Assembly: GCF_020696975.1 (NCBI RefSeq)
Contig: NZ_JAJGBK010000004.1
Location: 1 to 64,000, forward strand
Origin: Methanoculleus sp.
GTDB lineage: Archaea; Halobacteriota; Methanomicrobia; Methanomicrobiales; Methanoculleaceae
Reading direction: 5' to 3'
Length of the DNA: 64,000 bases
Positions 8,782 through 64,000 of the stretch are shown piece by piece. The stretch's first letter is position 1, and every line of letters starts with the position of its first letter. The position numbers and the translations under genes were made by a program. The notes beneath the pieces are model-generated. The model searched no databases. It saw only the letters and a program-made list of their open reading frames with translations, and was not told the DNA's origin.

Positions 8782-9743
8782 GGCGGATGCGGCGGCGTAT
8801 CGTCCAGCCGCTCCTCCGCGAGACGGAACTTCGAAAGACCGACCTCATTATGCCGGTCTTCGTGGACGAATCGATCAGCGAACCGTTTCCGATCGCCTCG
8901 ATGCCGGGACAGTCCCGGTATCCGGTAGACGGTGTCGCCGACTACTGCGAGCGCCTCTGGAACGCCGGCATCCGGGCTGTGATCCTCTTTGGGATTCCGG
9001 CAGCGAAAGACAGCGTGGCAACGGAGGCATATGCAGCGGAAGGCGTCGTCCAGCGGGCCGTCCGGAGCATCAAGGAGCGGTTGGCGGAGATGGTCGTCGT
9101 GACCGATGTCTGCGCCTGCGAGTACACCGACCACGGCCACTGCGGGATCGTCGGGGAGACCTCTGAGGGTCCGGATCTATTAAACGACCCCTCACTTGAC
9201 CTGATGGCGCAGATAGCCGTCTCCCATGCCGAGAGCGGCGCGGACATCGTCGCGCCGTCGTGCATGCTTGATGGGATGGTGCGAGCGATCCGGCAGGCGC
9301 TCGATGCCGCCGGATACCAGGACGTCCTGATTATGTCTTACTCCTCCAAGTTTGCAAGCGCCCTTTATGGGCCGTTTCGTGACGCAGCGGACTCGGGGTT
9401 CTCGTTCGGCGACCGGACGACCTACCAGATCAACCCGGGCAACGCCCGGGAGGCGGTGATGGAGTCGGAGCTCGACGCGGCCGAAGGGGCGGATATCCTG
9501 ATGGTCAAACCGGCCGGAGTCTACCTCGACATCCTTGCGGCCGTGACAGAGTTCGGGCTGCCGGTCGCGGCCTACCAGGTCAGCGGTGAGTACGCGATGA
9601 TCAAGGCTGCGGCAGAGCGCGGGTGGCTGAACGAGCGGGCCGTCGCTCTCGAGACCCTCACCGCCATCAAACGGGCCGGGGCCGACCTGATCATCACCTA
9701 CTTTGCAGAAGATGCGGCGAGGTGGCTCGATGAAGAGCACTGA
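8760..9743 (+). CDS. hemB: Delta-aminolevulinic acid dehydratase (porphobilinogen synthase)
   Basis: Condenses two 5-aminolevulinate molecules to porphobilinogen. The protein is 327 aa, the standard length. Active-site lysines lie in MSYSSKFAS and [22 protein letters not shown] is the Cys-rich zinc-binding loop of the Zn-dependent class. Start at 8760 gives [12 protein letters not shown], the usual HemB N-terminus, with a GTGGAG Shine-Dalgarno just upstream; it overlaps hemA by 22 bases. An internal ATG at 8778 forms an ATGA with the hemA stop and is a less likely alternative. Confidence 0.97.
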
Positions 9744-10977
9744 TCTTTTCGCACGGGCAAAGACCCTGATGCCGGGCGGCGTCAGCAGCCCTGTCAGGGC
9801 GATCAAACCCTACCCGTTCTACGTGGAGCGTGCGGCGGGCTCCCGCCTTGCGACCGTCGACGGGACCGAATTGGTCGACTGCTGCCTCGGCTACGGCCCC
9901 CTCATCCTCGGCCACGCCCACCCGGAGGTCCGGGAGGCGATCGAGCGCCAGCTCGAGAAGGGGTGGCTCTACGGCACCCCGACGCCGCTCGAACTTGACC
10001 TTGCGGGGATGATCACCGGCGACCACCCCGCAGTGGACATGGTCCGGTTCGTCTCGTCAGGCTCGGAGGCGACGATGGCCGCGATCCGGCTCGCCCGCGG
10101 CTACACGGGCAAGCAGGACATCATCAAGATCGAGGGCGGTTTCCACGGCGCCCACGATGCGGTCCTGGTCAAGGCCGGGTCAGGGGCGACCACGCTCGGG
10201 GTGCCCGACTCCGCGGGCGTCCTCGCGGACCTTGTGGCGCATACCCGGCAGGTCCCCTACAACGATCCCGAGGCGCTGGAGGACCTCCTCGCCGGGAACG
10301 GCGATGTTGCCGCGTTCATCCTCGAGCCGATCATGGGGAATATCGGCCCGGTCCTCCCGGACGACGGCTATCTCGCCGATGTCCGGGAGATCACCGCCGC
10401 CCACGACGTCCTCCTCATCCTCGACGAGGTTATCACCGGCTACCGGGTCGGGATCGGCGGCGCGGAGGTACTCTACGGGGTAAAACCGGATCTCGCCACG
10501 TTCGGCAAGATCATCGGCGGCGGTCTCCCCATCGGGGCGTTCGGGGGGCGGCGCGATATCATGGAACTGGTCGCCCCTGCAGGACCGGTCTACCAGGCCG
10601 GAACCTTCAGCGGCAACCCGGCGAGCCTCGCGGCGGGGTATGCGACCCTCCGCCACCTCCACGAGCACCCGGATGTCTACCGGCGGCTCGACGAGGCCAC
10701 GCGGGCGATCGGAGAGGTCGCCGAGGATGCACACCGCGGCTCGTTCGTCAGGATGGGCTCGCTCTTCAAGCACTTCTTCCGGGACGCAGCCCCGCGGGAC
10801 TACCGGGAGGTCAAGGAGTGTGACACGGAGGCGTTCTCGCGGTTCTGGAAGGCGATGCTTGATGCCGGGATCTTCCTCCCGCCGTCGCAGTTCGAGACGA
10901 ACTTCCTCTCTGCAGCGCACACGACACAGGATATCGAACAGATAGCAGACGCATACGGATCATGTCTCTTCGCATAG
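9730..10977 (+). CDS. hemL: Glutamate-1-semialdehyde 2,1-aminomutase
   Basis: PLP enzyme that converts glutamate-1-semialdehyde to 5-aminolevulinate, between HemA and HemB in the pathway. Class III aminotransferase fold, 415 aa. Visible motifs are [11 protein letters not shown] near the N-terminus, [25 protein letters not shown] and [16 protein letters not shown] with the Schiff-base Lys. ATG 9730 overlaps hemB by 14 bases and has GAGGTGG a few bases upstream. Confidence 0.97.
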
Positions 10978-12683: not shown

Positions 12684-13018
12684 AGATACACTGGACCGTG
12701 GTGGCTATTGCCCTTGGGGGAGGGGCTGACGGGGAGGGGGGCTTGCCCCCCTCTCCTGTCTCCACACCTAAAACGGCTGTTCCATGGAGACTCGTTAATA
12801 TGAAGAAATGGTCACTTCAGTAACAGATCTAGGAAATCAAGAGGTTTTTGAGGATCCTGTCTGCAAGATGATGCCTGAAACCCCCACCCCACCCGCGCTT
12901 CGCGCTCCTCACTCGCACCTGCGGTGCTCGAACTCTGCTCCTACGGAGCATCGTCCCCCACACCCCAGGGGCGGGGGCAGTGCGTGGCGATACCCCCACG
13001 AAAGCCGTGCCTGGGGTC
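12684..13018. repeat. Mosaic intergenic repeat with hairpin modules
   Basis: This gene-free stretch holds a left terminus TGGACCGTGGTGGCTATTG (12692-12710), then CTGACGGGGAG (12726-12736), a perfect 9-bp GC hairpin (12734-12753) and CCTGTCTCCAC (12755-12765). Three mini-hairpins follow: GCGC-TTC-GCGC (12895-12905), GCACC-TGC-GGTGC (12915-12927) and GCTCC-TAC-GGAGC (12937-12949). A right terminus GGCGATACCCCCACG lies at 12986-13000. The same blocks recur near 21.5 and 50.7 kb. About 120 bases between the halves (12766-12885) show no recognisable pattern. Confidence 0.7.
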
Positions 13019-13184: not shown

Positions 13185-14828
13185 ATGCGGAGTGAGACGG
13201 TAAAGAAAGGCTATCAGCGTGCCCCGAACCGGGCGCTGCTCAGGTCGCTCGGCGTGACCGACCGGGAGATGGACCAGCCCTTCATCGGTATAGCAAACGC
13301 GTATAACACGGTCGTCCCCGGGCACACCCACCTCCGGTCGCTCTCGCAGAAGGTGCAGGAGGGTGTCGCGGCCGCGGGCGGCGTGGCGTTCGAGTTCGGG
13401 ACCATCGGGATCTGCGACGGGATCGCGATGGGCCACGAGGGGATGCGCTACTCCCTCCCCTCGCGGGAGAACATCGCCGACGCCGTTGAGTTGATGGTCG
13501 AGGCGCACCGGTTCGACGGTCTCGTCTGCGTTGGGACCTGCGACAAGATCGTCCCCGGCATGCTGATGGCGGCGGTCCGGTGCAATATCCCGACGATCGT
13601 CGTCACCGGCGGACCCATGCTCCCCGGCTACGCGGCGGGCCGCGAACTCTCGCTCATCGACGTCTTTGAAGGCGTGGGCCGTTTCGCCGCCGGGACGATG
13701 AATGAGGAGGAACTCGGGGAACTCGAGTGTGCGGCGATGCCCGGGTGCGGGAGCTGCCAGGGGCTTTATACCGCAAACACGATGGCGTGCGTGACCGAGG
13801 CACTCGGCCTCTCCCTCCCGGGGACTGCCGCCACCCCCGCGGTCGACGCGGCAAAACTCCGCATAGCCCGGGAGAGCGGGGAGCGGGCGGTCGCCCTCGT
13901 CCGGGAAGGTATCCTCCCGCGGGATATCGTCACAAGGACAGGCCTTAAGAACGCCATCCGTGTTGACATGGCACTCGGCGGGTCGTCAAACACAGTCCTC
14001 CACCTGATGGCCGTCGCCCGGGAGGCAGGCGTCCCCCTCGACCTTGAGACCTTCAACACCGTCGCCGAGGAGACCCCGCACATTTGCCACATGCAGCCCG
14101 GGGGACCGCACTCGATGCTCGCTCTCTACCGGGCGGGCGGTATCCCCGCCATCCTGAAGATGCTTGAGGGGTACCTCGATGACGCCCCGACGGTCTCGGG
14201 ACGCTCGATCCTTGATATAGCGAAAACCGCCCGGGTCGCCGACCCGGAGGTGATCAGGACGACCGATGCCCCGGTCAGCCCCGCCGGCGGCCTCAAGGTT
14301 CTCAGGGGAACGCTCGCCCCCGACGGCGCCGTCGTCAAGTGCGCCGCGGTCACGGAGGCGATGTGGCGCCACCGGGGCCCGGCACGGGTCTTTGATGGGG
14401 AGACAGCCGCAATGGAGGCGATCCTCCACCGCGAGATCGCGGAAGGCGACGTTGTCGTGATCCGCTACGAGGGCCCGCGGGGGGGACCCGGGATGCCCGA
14501 GATGCTCTCACCGACGTCAGCGCTGATGGGTCTCGGCTACGCCCGGGTCGCCCTGGTGACCGACGGGCGTTTCTCGGGCGGCACCCGGGGTCCGTGCATC
14601 GGGCATATCGCCCCTGAAGCCGCGATCGGCGGGCCGATTGCCCTTGTCGAGGACGGTGACGAGATTGTGATCGACCTCTACGAAAAACGCCTCGATCTCG
14701 CCGTCGAGAGAGCGACCCTCGAGGAGCGGCGGCAGGCATGGAAACCGCCGGCCCGGCGCCTGACCGGAGTGCTCGCCCGGTATGCGCAGACCGTCGAACA
14801 GGCGAACCTCGGTGCCGTCCAGAGGTAA
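13185..14828 (+). CDS. ilvD: Dihydroxy-acid dehydratase
   Basis: Fe-S enzyme that dehydrates 2,3-dihydroxy-isovalerate and -methylvalerate, the penultimate common step of valine and isoleucine synthesis. The protein is 547 aa. Motifs are [49 protein letters not shown] (cluster Cys), [15 protein letters not shown] and [21 protein letters not shown] near the C-terminus. ATG 13185 starts at the typical [20 protein letters not shown]; the open frame upstream to 13050 runs through repeat-flanking DNA and is not conserved-looking. Apparently monocistronic. Confidence 0.96.
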
Positions 14829-14832
14829 CCCC

Positions 14833-14838
14833 TTTTTT
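14833..14838 (+). terminator. Oligo-T terminator after ilvD
   Basis: T-run immediately after the ilvD stop. The following 14839-15096 segment holds no gene I can support; it contains another T-run at 15060-15066 and leads into the carbonic anhydrase promoter. Confidence 0.4.
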
Positions 14839-15096
14839 GCCGGGCAGGGCGGAATGGTTCGTATCTTCTCATCCGGGGAGAGCGCATACTCTTCACCGGC
14901 GTCAGGGCGCCCGACGTCAATTTGGTCTCGTTGACAAATTTCTCATGTTAGATAATTATACCCGAACGCCATGATGTACGCGTACCCTGCACCCCCAAAC
15001 AGCACATTGATGCACAGAGGTGCTCCGGTGCGCCCGGCGCAATTTCTGGCAGGAGAACGTTTTTTTCCCCGGCTCATCATCCGGCAGCATCCAGGC

Positions 15097-15109
15097 GTAT
15101 ATATTTTTA
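15097..15109 (+). promoter_or_regulatory. TATA promoter of the carbonic anhydrase gene
   Basis: GTATATATTTTTA is a strong TATA element in GC-rich surroundings. It predicts transcription from about 15125 and a leader of about 55 bases carrying CGGAG before the start codon. Confidence 0.65.
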
Positions 15110-15178
15110 AACCCCTGGGCATAACTCCCTCCTAAGGCGCACCCGTCCGAGACGGTCGCCCAATCACTTACGGAGCTT

Positions 15179-15763
15179 ATGATGATACAGAAGTTTCTTG
15201 AGGGCAACACGCGTTTCCGGGAAGAAGATTTTGCAAAGGATCCCGAGCATTACGGCCCGCTTGCGTCAAGCCAGCACCCGGTGGTTCTCTGGATAGGGTG
15301 CTCCGACTCGCGTGTGGACCCGGAACGCATCACCGGTGCAAAGGCCGGTGAGATCTTCGTCCAGCGCAACATCGGCAACATCGTCCCGGTTCACGACTGG
15401 AACTTCGCGACCGTGCTCGAGTACGCGCTCAACCATCTCAAAGTCGAAGACATCGTCATCTGCGGGCACTCTGACTGCGGCGCCATAAAGGGGCTCGACC
15501 ACGAGAGCACGGACGCATATGTCCCCCTCTGGCTCAACAACGCGCAGGAGGCGAAACGCCGTGTCGACGGCAGGATACAGGTCCCGAAGACCCCTGAAGA
15601 AGAGAAGATCCGGCGGCGGCTCATCGAGATCGAGAACGTCGGCCTGCAGCTTGAGCACATCCGCACCTATCCGCCGGTCAAGGCTGCCGAAAAAGATGGG
15701 CGGGTCCGGCTTCACGGCCTTTACTTCGACCTGGCGACAGGAGAGTTGAAGAAGATATTCTAA
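15179..15763 (+). CDS. Beta-class carbonic anhydrase
   Basis: Interconverts CO2 and bicarbonate, useful both for methanogenesis from CO2 and for bicarbonate-dependent carbamoyl phosphate synthesis encoded just downstream. Zinc ligands and the catalytic dyad are visible: C41-x-D43-x-R45 in WIGCSDSRVDPE and H97-x2-C100 in ICGHSDCGA. The protein is 194 aa and looks cytosolic, with no signal peptide. Two tandem ATGs (15179 and 15182) are equally possible. Its stop overlaps the stop of the convergent minus-strand gene. Confidence 0.95.
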   Translation: MMIQKFLEGNTRFREEDFAKDPEHYGPLASSQHPVVLWIGCSDSRVDPERITGAKAGEIFVQRNIGNIVPVHDWNFATVLEYALNHLKVEDIVICGHSDCGAIKGLDHESTDAYVPLWLNNAQEAKRRVDGRIQVPKTPEEEKIRRRLIEIENVGLQLEHIRTYPPVKAAEKDGRVRLHGLYFDLATGELKKIF

Positions 15764-21439: not shown

Positions 21440-21640
21440 CGCAAAGAGCGACGTGCCGAACGCGACCGGCCGAAGGGCGGGAGCGTGAGAAAACGCGAAG
21501 CGTTTTCGAGTTGCGACCGGCCGAAGGGCGGGAGCGTGAGCACCGTTAGGTGCGAGTGCGGGGCCGGAGTCTGAGAAGGCCGAAGGCCTTCGCTACCCCC
21601 TCATGGCAATATCCCCCCGGAATCCGTGCCTGGGACGCAA
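21440..21640. repeat. Hairpin-module repeat between carB and proX
   Basis: Two identical 28-base direct repeats, beginning GCGACCGGCCGAAGGGCGGG, lie at 21462-21489 and 21513-21540. They flank the hairpin AAAACGC-GAA-GCGTTTT (21490-21506). Further hairpins are GCACC-GTTA-GGTGC (21540-21553) and AAGGCC-GAA-GGCCTT (21576-21590). The terminus GGCAATATCCCCCCGG (21605-21620), followed by GTGCCTGGGA, matches the copy at 12986-13016. No gene is present. Confidence 0.7.
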
Positions 21641-50225: not shown

Positions 50226-50628
50226 GACCTCTCTTCCTCTCCTGATCTTTCGTTTGAATGTCAAAAAAGGTTGACCATACTGCACAGGGGAATCCCGGGG
50301 GAGCGGCCGTTTTGACCGGTGCGATCCCCGTCCTCTCCGTATTTAGGTACCTAATAGATCGGTCCGGGCGGGTAAAAAGGTATGTCAGGGTCTCCCGTTC
50401 CGGCCCCTGGAGGGGCAGAGCGCGGGGTCGGCCGTGGGACGTCTCCGCCTCCAGTGCCGCCGGCCCGCGCCCTTCCGATGTTTGCACCAGGTGTGCCGAT
50501 GTTAAACAGAGCCGGGTTGCCGGACTAGTGTGCCATGGTGAAACGCGCCGGAAGAATAAGGTACGGTTTGTGTCTGTCGGCATTAGAATCCGGGTTTTCG
50601 TCAACTGCAACCATTGGGCACGGATTTC
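50226..50628. other. Gene-free region upstream of hypC
   Basis: The hypC promoter should lie just above 50225; TTTAGGTACCTAATAG (50341-50356), containing the palindrome TTAGGTACCTAA, is the most AT-rich spot. The rest is of variable composition with no convincing open frame. It borders the repeat element that begins near 50629. Confidence 0.35.
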
Positions 50629-50810
50629 CAGTGGATATCGCCATTGGGGGAACGACTGTCCACAGAACAGGAGTTCGAGAAACCCGAAGGGTTTCGCTGT
50701 GGGGCTGACGGGGAGTGCGAGCGAAGCGAGTTTGAGCACCGATAGGTGCGGAGGGGGCATGCCCCCCCTGTCCCCACCCCTCTGTATGGTGATATCCCCA
50801 CGGTCCACTG
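50629..50810. repeat. MITE-like mosaic repeat, most complete copy
   Basis: The right end GGTGATATCCCCACGGTCCA (50788-50807) is the inverse of the left-end type seen at 12692-12712; this copy's own left end (50629-50650, CAGTGGATATCGCCATTGGG) is a shortened version. Inside are hairpins GAAACCC-GAA-GGGTTTC (50679-50695), GCACC-GATA-GGTGC (50736-50749) and a GC palindrome (50753-50767). CTGACGGGGAG (50705-50715) and CCTGTCCCCAC (50767-50777) also occur in the 12.7-kb copy. Confidence 0.7.
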
Positions 50811-50949: not shown

Positions 50950-51080
50950 TGCTCGAACTCCGCTCCTCAAAGCCTGATGGCTTCTCAAACTTCGGTCCCG
51001 CACCTAATGGTGCTCATGCTCCGCTCCTCAAAGACCTCCGGTCTTCTTGAACTCCTGTCCTACGGACAATCGTTCGTTGG
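50950..51080. repeat. Cluster of mini-hairpins in a repeated linker
   Basis: Hairpins AAGCC-TGAT-GGCTT (50970-50983), GCACC-TAAT-GGTGC (51000-51013), AAGACC-TCC-GGTCTT (51031-51045) and GTCC-TAC-GGAC (51057-51067) are separated by near-identical linkers containing CTCCGCTCCTCAAA. The right part overlaps the 3' end of the methyltransferase gene. Between 50811 and 50949 nothing is recognised. Confidence 0.7.
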
Positions 51081-51720
51081 AACATCGCACCTGTCGGCCC
51101 GTCGCATTCAGAAACACCGCCTCTACCTCTGCCCGGGGGAGATCCCTGCCCCTGACACGCATCTGCCAGCGATGCGTCCGGACAGAGACCGGGGTGAGCG
51201 GCGCAAAGAGTTCCGCCGTCTCGGTCTCGGTGAAGTAGTGGGTGATGATGCCGTCACCCCTTCGAAAGGTCTGCGGCTCCGTCTCTGTCCCCTTCCCGGC
51301 GCGCATATCCTCGACGGAGAAGGCCCGGAAGAAGGCCGTACCCCCGTGTCCGAGCACCCGGAAGACCTCGGACGCCACGGCCCTCCGGCCCGAGAGGGGG
51401 AGGTGGCCGGCGATGTGGACCAGGAAGACCGCGTCAAACGTCCCCTCACGGAACGGCAGGCACCGCGCGTCGGCAACGGCGAGATGGACCGTTGCGGTCG
51501 CGGGATGCCGCCGGGCGAGGGTGAGGGCATGAGGGGAGATGTCGACCGCGGTCACGCGTGCCGACCGTCGGGCAAGGGCTGTGAGGGTCTTGCCGTTCCC
51601 GCAGCCGAGTTCCAGGACGGCGGCACCGGGAGGGATCTCCGGAAGCGGCGCCGGCACTCCGCCCCAGAGGTCTCCCCGCCTCCGGTAGTCCTCGTCCCAG
51701 GCCGATGAATGGGCAGTCAC
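51028..51720 (-). CDS. Class I SAM-dependent methyltransferase with repeat-encoded C-terminus
   Basis: The protein is 230 aa. SAM motif I is VLELGCGNGKTLTALA, motif II VTAVDISPHALTLARR, followed by VADARCLPFREGTFDAVFLV. The substrate is unknown; it resembles UbiE/TehB-like small-molecule methylases. The last ~17 residues (CSNERLSVGQEFKKTGGL) are encoded by the hairpin repeat at 51028-51080, so the original C-terminus was probably replaced. It begins five bases downstream of the msrB stop and is probably co-transcribed. Confidence 0.85.
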   Translation of the reverse strand: MTAHSSAWDEDYRRRGDLWGGVPAPLPEIPPGAAVLELGCGNGKTLTALARRSARVTAVDISPHALTLARRHPATATVHLAVADARCLPFREGTFDAVFLVHIAGHLPLSGRRAVASEVFRVLGHGGTAFFRAFSVEDMRAGKGTETEPQTFRRGDGIITHYFTETETAELFAPLTPVSVRTHRWQMRVRGRDLPRAEVEAVFLNATGRQVRCSNERLSVGQEFKKTGGL

Positions 51721-63661: not shown

Positions 63662-63779
63662 CGGCATTCTCTCTACAGTGCTTCTCGGGGATTTGAAAGG
63701 CTCTGACCAATAGGGAGGATTTTCGCTCCCATGAGATAGGGAAAGACCGGCCCGTATCAAGGACGTGCTCTCCCGGTCA

Positions 63780-64000
63780 AGTTTCATCCCCACGTGCATG
63801 GGGAACGCTAGTCGTCTTCGCCGCGCTTATACCGCCGGACCGGTTCATCCCCACGTGCATGGGGAACGCACCAGCCAAAGCGCCAGCAAATGGATTATCA
63901 CCGGTTCATCCCCACGTGCATGGGGAACGCTCGCCGAACCCCGTGACGAAGGCCCTCGCCGACGGTTCATCCCCACGTGCATGGGGAACGCTCTCATCGC
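63780..64000 (-). CRISPR. Type I-E-like CRISPR array (partial, continues past the window)
   Basis: Four 29-base repeats at 63780-63808, 63841-63869, 63902-63930 and 63963-63991, with 32-base spacers. The plus-strand repeat starts CGGTTCATCCCCACG and ends TGCATGGGGAACGC. The inner palindrome GTTCCCC/GGGGAAC and the ATGAACCG end on the minus strand are type I-E features, so transcription is probably leftwards from a leader outside the window. The 63780 copy differs at two bases, as expected of the leader-distal terminal repeat. No cas genes are in the window. Confidence 0.95.

Follow-up and report, generated by a model that had tools for sequence, protein, structure and literature searches.

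The small dispersed repeats of Nostoc are very small repeats inserted in other repeats, and the BOX elements of Streptococcus have a modular build with one module present in variable copy number. In general build, the Methanoculleus repeats reported here resemble both, in having small repeats within repeats and a modular make-up.

Other short hairpin repeats are known from bacteria and organelles. Some REP dimers sit within larger palindromes, and no dedicated transposase seems to belong to the CGTC families (PMC3733652). The yeast mitochondrial GC clusters (GC42) are GC-rich hairpins of about 40 nt that have short flanking duplications, merge and shuffle, and are present or absent among strains (PMC4478555). 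The double-hairpin elements of Allomyces and the repetitive hairpin elements of sponges include two-stem double hairpins and multi-hairpin arrays, and their mobility is inferred from distribution (PMC2800124).

The Methanoculleus repeats are like the REP, REPIN and BIME elements in being short high-copy hairpins with variable stems, but unlike them they occur without a Y1 transposase in 24 of 27 carriers, nest loop within loop and belong to an archaeal genus. The scored Methanoculleus units lie one way, whereas REPs are often HH dimers; by eye there is no GTAG end tag among the units inspected, and CGTC lies inside some stems, not as a tag. With GC42 they share, in general make-up, GC-rich hairpin units of about 40 nt, merging and shuffling of units, and presence/absence variation, and in nested cases short flanking duplications; 209 strictly defined units (mode 40 nt) consist of two adjacent hairpins in the manner of GC clusters and double-hairpin elements. 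GC42 is organellar, whereas in Methanoculleus a separate frame repeat is the landing place. The Allomyces and sponge elements are alike in their two-stem double hairpins and arrays and in mobility judged by distribution; they too are organellar, and sponge stems are conserved while the loops vary, whereas Methanoculleus stems vary and GRA-type loops are common. We found no description of this element in Methanoculleus in the literature searched, most subscription journals lying outside its reach. The M. marisnigri tandem families named with 45 and 51 in one report (PMC6749651) may be arrays of these units.

Repeat elements in the window

The window is a stretch of 64,000 nucleotides at the start of a Methanoculleus sp. 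contig (NZ_JAJGBK010000004.1). The element of main interest lies upstream of a hypC-hypA-hypE set and downstream of a methyltransferase gene; the Pfam domains of the neighbours are HypC, HypA, AIRS/AIRS_C and Methyltransf_25, with hypE named from its AIR-synthase domains and position, and the hypE neighbours, with 95% identity to M. sediminis, place the host in Methanoculleus. The features are as follows (a slash marks the insertion point in a slot).

50618-50810, plus strand: whole element, with type B outer end at 50618-50628 (GCACGGATTTC), frame half 1, and type A outer end at 50795-50810 on the minus strand
50652-50696, plus strand: first inserted double-hairpin unit, in slot GGGGGA/GGGGCTGACG, the frame strand carrying a single linker plus B hairpin and the opposite strand none
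50701-50715, plus strand: left frame GGGGCTGACGGGGAG
50716-50749, plus strand: second inserted unit, TGCGAGCGAAGCGAG-TTT-GAGCACCGATAGGTGC, flanked by GGAG at 50712-50715 and GGAG at 50750-50753; a similar unit is present or absent at an orthologous frame
50753-50766, plus strand: frame GC hairpin, GGGGG-CATG-CCCCC
50767-50777, plus strand: right frame CCTGTCCCCAC
12689-13010, plus strand: second element of the window, two-half form, with end A 12689-12704, left frame 12722-12736, GC hairpin, right frame 12755-12765, spacer, half 2 12888-12991, and end B 13000-13010 (minus strand)
about 12910-12960, minus strand: inserted unit in half 2 of the 12689-13010 element
21456-21600, plus strand: three-unit array, adjoining a lone type B outer end at 21619-21629 (minus strand)
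50995-51046, minus strand: another such unit, at the methyltransferase ORF's 3' end

A preliminary description of this DNA noted two motifs that bracket only a GC hairpin at 12726-12765 and the hairpin plus two modules at 50705-50777, and both arrangements are found there. The left motif, CTGACGGGGAG, has two exact copies in the window, at 12726-12736 and 50705-50715, and the right motif is CCTGTCTCCAC at 12755-12765 and CCTGTCCCCAC at 50767-50777. When up to two mismatches are allowed, CTGACGGGGAG occurs 43 times where 36.8 are expected, a count attained in 15 of 100 shuffles and so no excess over chance; it is the matches in the window's own genome (2.29 Mb in 33 contigs, E≤0.001), 12 to the long form and 22 to the short form, that establish repeat similarity beyond chance.

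The larger context changes how the two copies are read. The slot of the supposedly short copy at 12726 does hold a hairpin alone, but that copy is just half of an element at approximately 12689-13010 whose other half carries a unit, so the element is not unit-free. Similarly, the copy at 50705 has its modules but belongs to an element spanning approximately 50618-50810 with another unit at approximately 50652-50696. The two modules, GCGAGCGAAGCGAG (50717-50730) and GCACCGATAGGTGC (50736-50749), are both present; they are the A and B halves of one unit at 50717-50749 and go together. GCGAGCGAAGCGAG is a poor hairpin: when the 38-nt unit is folded alone as DNA it stays open and only the GCACCGATAGGTGC part is paired.

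Several other features of the window were noted. The methyltransferase ORF (51028-51720) runs into hairpin units at its 3' end, and many matches to its orthologues end at residue 202-205 of 229; the units may have lengthened the protein. A left frame with four G runs at 12716-12742 (GGGGGAGGGGCTGACGGGGAGGGGGG) is a possible G-quadruplex, and at the window end (63778-63991) four 31-nt direct repeats with 61-nt spacing and a TTCATCCCCACGTGCATGGGGAACGC core form a CRISPR-like array. The only known RNA families found in the window are tRNAs.

Architecture of the frame repeat

The anatomy was derived from 30 loci of the window's own genome, some of which represent one copy, and from approximately 2 Mb of sequence of three relatives. 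The frame, GGGGCTGACGGGGAG...CCCCTGTCYCCAC, makes up one half of a dispersed MITE-like repeat that lacks genes and has inverted outer ends, each consisting of TATCGCCA with GTGGACCGTGG or CACGGATTTC before it. Inward of the outer end are GGGG(G)AGGGGCTGACGGGGAG, a GC hairpin of variable loop and then CTCCCCTGTCTCCAC, and a longer form adds a spacer and a second half (CCCACCC-GCGCTTCGCGC-TCCTC, a GC hairpin and GCAGTGCGTGGCGATA). The left and right frame pair together and the bare frame folds as a single long hairpin (z -1.87; 12 of 200 shuffles equally good); the 73-nt stretch, taken as a whole, has an unremarkable folding energy (z -0.76).

Among 97 left-right frame pairs in the three relatives and the window, 49 are bare and 35 are loaded; of the remaining 13, one has its GC hairpin doubled and the others are chance or run-in pairs (12). 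Bare pairs, which hold a GC hairpin of 15-20 nt alone, thus account for 49 of 84 genuine copies, and the inserted blocks of the 35 loaded frames have 24 different starts.

The frame resembles MITEs in its inverted outer ends, which are of two sequence types and form 25 facing pairs 80-373 bp apart, and in carrying no gene. It is unlike them in being loaded with other units, and neither a parent transposon nor a clean target duplication was found. Across three genomes (1.97 Mb), no parent or autonomous relative sharing the frame ends was recognised, a result that leaves aside two wider end pairs, spaced 4.7 and 5.9 kb. One 340-bp presence/absence block round a frame extends well past the ends with no exact duplication.

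Double-hairpin units and their nesting

The inserted unit consists of a hairpin or hairpin-like A half, a GAG-NNN-GAG linker and a B hairpin, mostly 38-45 nt in all, with recurring ends NNCGA...GGTGC-GA(A)G. The 209 strict units, 205 in the three relatives and four in the window, range from 34 to 49 nt; the definition needs a good A hairpin and therefore leaves out A modules of the GCGAGCGAAGCGAG type. The B half comprises 221 perfect palindromes, against 5 in the reversed sequence, with about ten different stem sequences (such as GCACC, GAAACTC, GAAGACC, GAAGAAC, GAAAACGC and GAAGCC) and loops such as GAA, GGA, GTTA and GTCA; base pairing is preserved while the letters vary. Folded singly as DNA, two of three units are more stable than their shuffles (z about -3), and the window's own unit has a z of -1.4. 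For 41 of the 205 strict units the nearest frame motif is over 1 kb away, so the units are not part of the frame. Upstream of hypC in two relatives (L154 and L150, in G007 and G012) there are tandem arrays of an approximately 50-bp unit in about five to seven copies, counted by eye, and in another genome (G031:C77) the matches are spaced 38 bp apart.

Units are also found within hairpins formed by their own flanks. There are 31 such cases among the 209 (29 of them credible), against a mean of 6.6 and a maximum of 16 in 50 rounds of flank reshuffling. The host-guest list has 15 rows, of which two are accidental by eye and two others represent one pair, leaving 12 distinct credible pairs, some with guests similar to one another; one composite occurs seven times. 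Credible host loops, read on the unit's strand, are GRAG, GAACG or GAATG, and GAAG, GAG or GAACG follows the unit. One frame (G006 position 247737) has three levels of nesting by eye.

The orientation of the units scored within frames is constant. Each of the 46 linkers with a B hairpin in half-1 frames (n=73) lies on the purine strand of the frame, and each of the 32 in half-2 copies (n=53) lies on the opposite chromosome strand, the purine strand of that half. The direction is thus set by the target and not by the replication fork, and a simple lagging-strand effect is insufficient, the units of one element's two halves facing opposite chromosome strands.

Gain and loss at orthologous sites

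Three relatives, G007 (2,478,101 bases, which we take to be M. marisnigri JR1), G006 and G012 (whose hypA-hypC is identical to that of M. sediminis S3Fa), were compared over 760, 685 and 523 kb respectively. The 234 syntenic regions yielded 69 clean indel rows of 25-500 bp, certain sites appearing in more than one species pair. A sequence-pattern filter flagged 37 rows of up to 220 bp as module blocks, one of them false (position 509540) and dropped before the final polarity test, and two module rows above 220 bp were excluded; several of the 30 other indels, those with 8-16 bp repeats, are also hairpin material by eye, uncounted as modules.

The differences comprise whole units. A 38-bp TGCGAGTGAAGCGAGCTTGAGCACCGATAGGTGC plus GAAG is present in a G006 frame and absent from G007 (at about 1,312,572), and a further 46 bp lies within a GCACC-GAAG-GTGC loop, with GAAG on either side, in G006 and not in G007. 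Likewise, G012 has 45 bp within GGGCG-GAA-CGCCC, with GAACGC on either side, that G007 lacks, and a 178-bp block absent from both G006 and G007.

When 36 rows were judged against the third genome, that genome was empty in 15 (11 sites) and full in five (three sites), with nine unclear and seven having no syntenic region; the thresholds were loosened after a stricter first pass had left 27 of 30 unclear, and several polarised sites share one element and so are not fully independent. Loaded sites are thus confined to one of three species at 11 sites (G006 or G007 alone at seven, G012 alone at four) and are shared by two at three. In a hyp-gene tree, its inner nodes read without support values, G012 is sister to the group containing G006 and G007, and the seven sites loaded in G006 or G007 alone therefore speak for gain, while the four G012-alone sites favour neither direction.

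Most indel ends lack exact duplications: their length is 0-1 bp in 28 of the 37 module rows and at least 5 bp in three, compared with at least 5 bp in ten of the other 30. They are clear mainly in nested cases (GAAG, GAACG), and exact target duplication is not supported as a general rule. A single frame haplotype (ACAAAGGGGAGTGCGAGCGCAGCGAGCATGAG...) is found again at three orthologous sites and in the window's own genome (L007), a sign of conversion among copies that were loaded beforehand. The units of two species differ at one site where the third is empty.

These comparisons support cassette gain by whole units, as the preliminary description had proposed for the modules: orthologous frames differ between species in exactly this way. 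The aligned copies and mapped gains and losses are from different species, not strains of one species, and show losses alongside the gains, certain blocks having been lost or exchanged.

The locus upstream of hypC varies in the same slots. In ten hypC-upstream regions, chosen because element sequence is visible there, nine have a frame by the pattern used, and the frame-slot units number one in the window, three in G012, none in G013, three in G009, two in G008, none in G004, G027 and G003, and one in G007; other slots vary too. The flanks fall into groups (the window with G008 and G009; G012 with G007; G013 with G003 and G004), so these are not all one element. Within groups, the slot has three units in G012 and one in G007, and a half-2 block in G013 is absent from G003 and G004. 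No frame is present at this position in the G025, G019, G017, G016 and G032 loci, where 93-249 bp separate the genes. Comparison of 50618-50810 with L134 and L151 shows a frame reversed relative to hypC compared with G008, with one outer end and its flank matching; this reflects either inversion between the ends or replacement.

Distribution and order of events

Of the 35 genomes of the genus, 32 match the bare-frame query and 27 the long-form query. The long-form query found no match outside the genus: at E≤1e-5 it is found in at least 25 of 232 genomes of the order and in one of 40 genera, with up to three candidates scored per genome, so that weak matches may be missed.

One relative, G011, appears to have frames only. 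In 400 kb of its sequence there are 12 frames, none with an insert above 30 nt, and five linker matches against six in the reversed control; the three loaded genomes have 21-23 linker matches per 100 kb, with 6.4 in the reversed control of G007. The outer ends in G011 hardly fit the pattern (one match). Several of its frames occur in near-tandem rows with neighbours about 260 bp apart (L293, about 9554-10079; L288, about 14265-15303). In the hyp-gene tree G011 and G030 are the sister of the clade holding the loaded genomes (support 0.92), a clade that also contains G033, with no frame or unit found, and G014, with no long-form match; the next deeper node, to G022 (five short matches, no long), has support of 0.62. 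The two frames and two linker matches of G030 are one feature set counted twice (L165 lies in L066) and carry no information. The simplest reading is that the frame came first and the units later, although loss of all units in G011 is possible.

Candidate movers

Y1_Tnp is found in seven of 35 genus genomes, and just three of 27 carriers of a long-form match have it: G018, G023 and G032 (below cut-off). There are no matches in G000, G003, G006, G007, G008 or G012, and the genomes G011, G020, G030 and G033 have Y1_Tnp without a long-form match. An IS200/RAYT mover is thus unlikely, 24 of 27 carriers having no Y1_Tnp. Separately, G033, with neither frame nor long-form match, has 19 Y1_Tnp matches, many of them fragments. 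RVT_1 occurs only in G023, G026 and G027 among the 35 and is missing from 24 of 27 carriers, making reverse transcription an unlikely mover. In the genus, 31 of the 35 genomes have DDE_Tnp_1 genes, with the highest number (15) in G011, and the carriers G010, G016, G025 and G026 have none; no family of this type shows a pattern across the 35 genomes that tracks the element.

Models for the spread of the units

The comparisons show a dispersed frame repeat, in the simplest reading older than the modules, that receives double-hairpin units, gained whole (A+B) or in runs. The landing slots are purine-rich frame sites (GGGGA/GGGG, GGGGAG/GGGG and GCGGGG/GAGGAG), and the GRA loop in the hairpins of resident units is a second landing place; in every scored case, the unit's purine strand lies on the target's purine strand. 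Each arrival supplies further GRA loops and another GAGG end, and hence new targets, so that arrays and Russian-doll nests grow. Units would be copied in from other copies, we infer, with no resident IS200-type transposase or reverse transcriptase, the likeliest step being a template switch during replication or repair at a hairpin, guided by the GRAG, GAAG and GAGG words that flank units. Such a switch is favoured because it accounts for the target-set orientation, the multi-unit inserts and the absence of constant duplications, and it would yield short, imperfect ones. Units would be lost by slippage or recombination between longer direct repeats, and loaded copies may also spread or convert one another, ectopic conversion probably contributing. 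Frame loading by whole units, together with GRAG-microhomology copying between hairpins, is our best explanation, and we give it an even chance of being right. The stronger proposal, that copying is directed by hairpins and free of any transposase, with single-stranded GRA-loop hairpins as points of landing and exit so that units multiply, nest and keep their orientation using the cell's replication and repair enzymes only, is put forward tentatively.

A transposase outside the tested families is nearly as likely as the favoured template-switch copying. In this model, which we regard as quite possible while short of probable, an enzyme of the DDE or another type mobilises A+B as a miniature transposon, recognising its double hairpin and cutting GRA loops with a stagger of 3-4 bases, and frames and units may use different enzymes. 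The whole-unit inserts with recurring ends (NNCGA...GGTGC), the short duplications in nested cases and the wide occurrence of DDE_Tnp_1 (31 of 35 genomes) are as expected of it, and the strict units lying over 1 kb from a frame motif (41 of 205) indicate independence of the frame. Exact duplications are rare, however, the 1.97 Mb of three genomes revealed no autonomous element with frame ends (among the 25 pairs 80-373 bp apart, leaving aside the two at 4.7 and 5.9 kb), and DDE_Tnp_1 is missing from four carriers (G010, G016, G025, G026) yet peaks, at 15, in G011, whose 400 kb contain no loaded frame. It is improbable that gene conversion or recombination among frame copies loaded long ago, with no new insertion, explains the whole pattern. 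The frame haplotype with its unit at three orthologous sites, the host-guest composite found seven times and the site with different units in two species and none in the third all agree with conversion, but the 12 host-guest pairs and the 24 block starts in the frame slot need many separate insertions at some time, and there are units well away from frames.

Deletion of a fixed block as the sole source of short copies, the outcome against which the preliminary description had set its cassettes, is rejected. That the modules are a fixed ancestral block would accord with the three of 14 polarised sites loaded in two of three species and with some indels having 8-16 bp direct repeats, as in deletions, but it is very improbable given the unit-free frames of the early-branching G011, single-species presence at 11 sites against single-species absence at three, the wider reach of the bare-frame query (32 of 35 genomes against 27), the 49 bare copies among 84, and the nested units that interrupt older ones. 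RNA-mediated copying, by retrotransposition of a small structured RNA, is the least credible of these explanations. It is a route proposed for similar mitochondrial elements (PMC2800124, PMC4478555), and two of three units, when folded singly as DNA, surpass their shuffles in stability (z about -3; -1.4 for the window's unit), but RVT_1 is present in three of 35 genomes and in none of G000, G006, G007 and G012.

We read the repeat system as mainly selfish or passive. The spread of tiny gene-less hairpin repeats is an old open question in bacteria and organelles. In Methanoculleus, close relatives, M. sediminis S3Fa and other named strains among them, differ by whole units at many orthologous sites, and these differences, with the fixed orientation, the nesting and the unit-free frame of an early-branching relative, make the question testable in a free-living archaeon.
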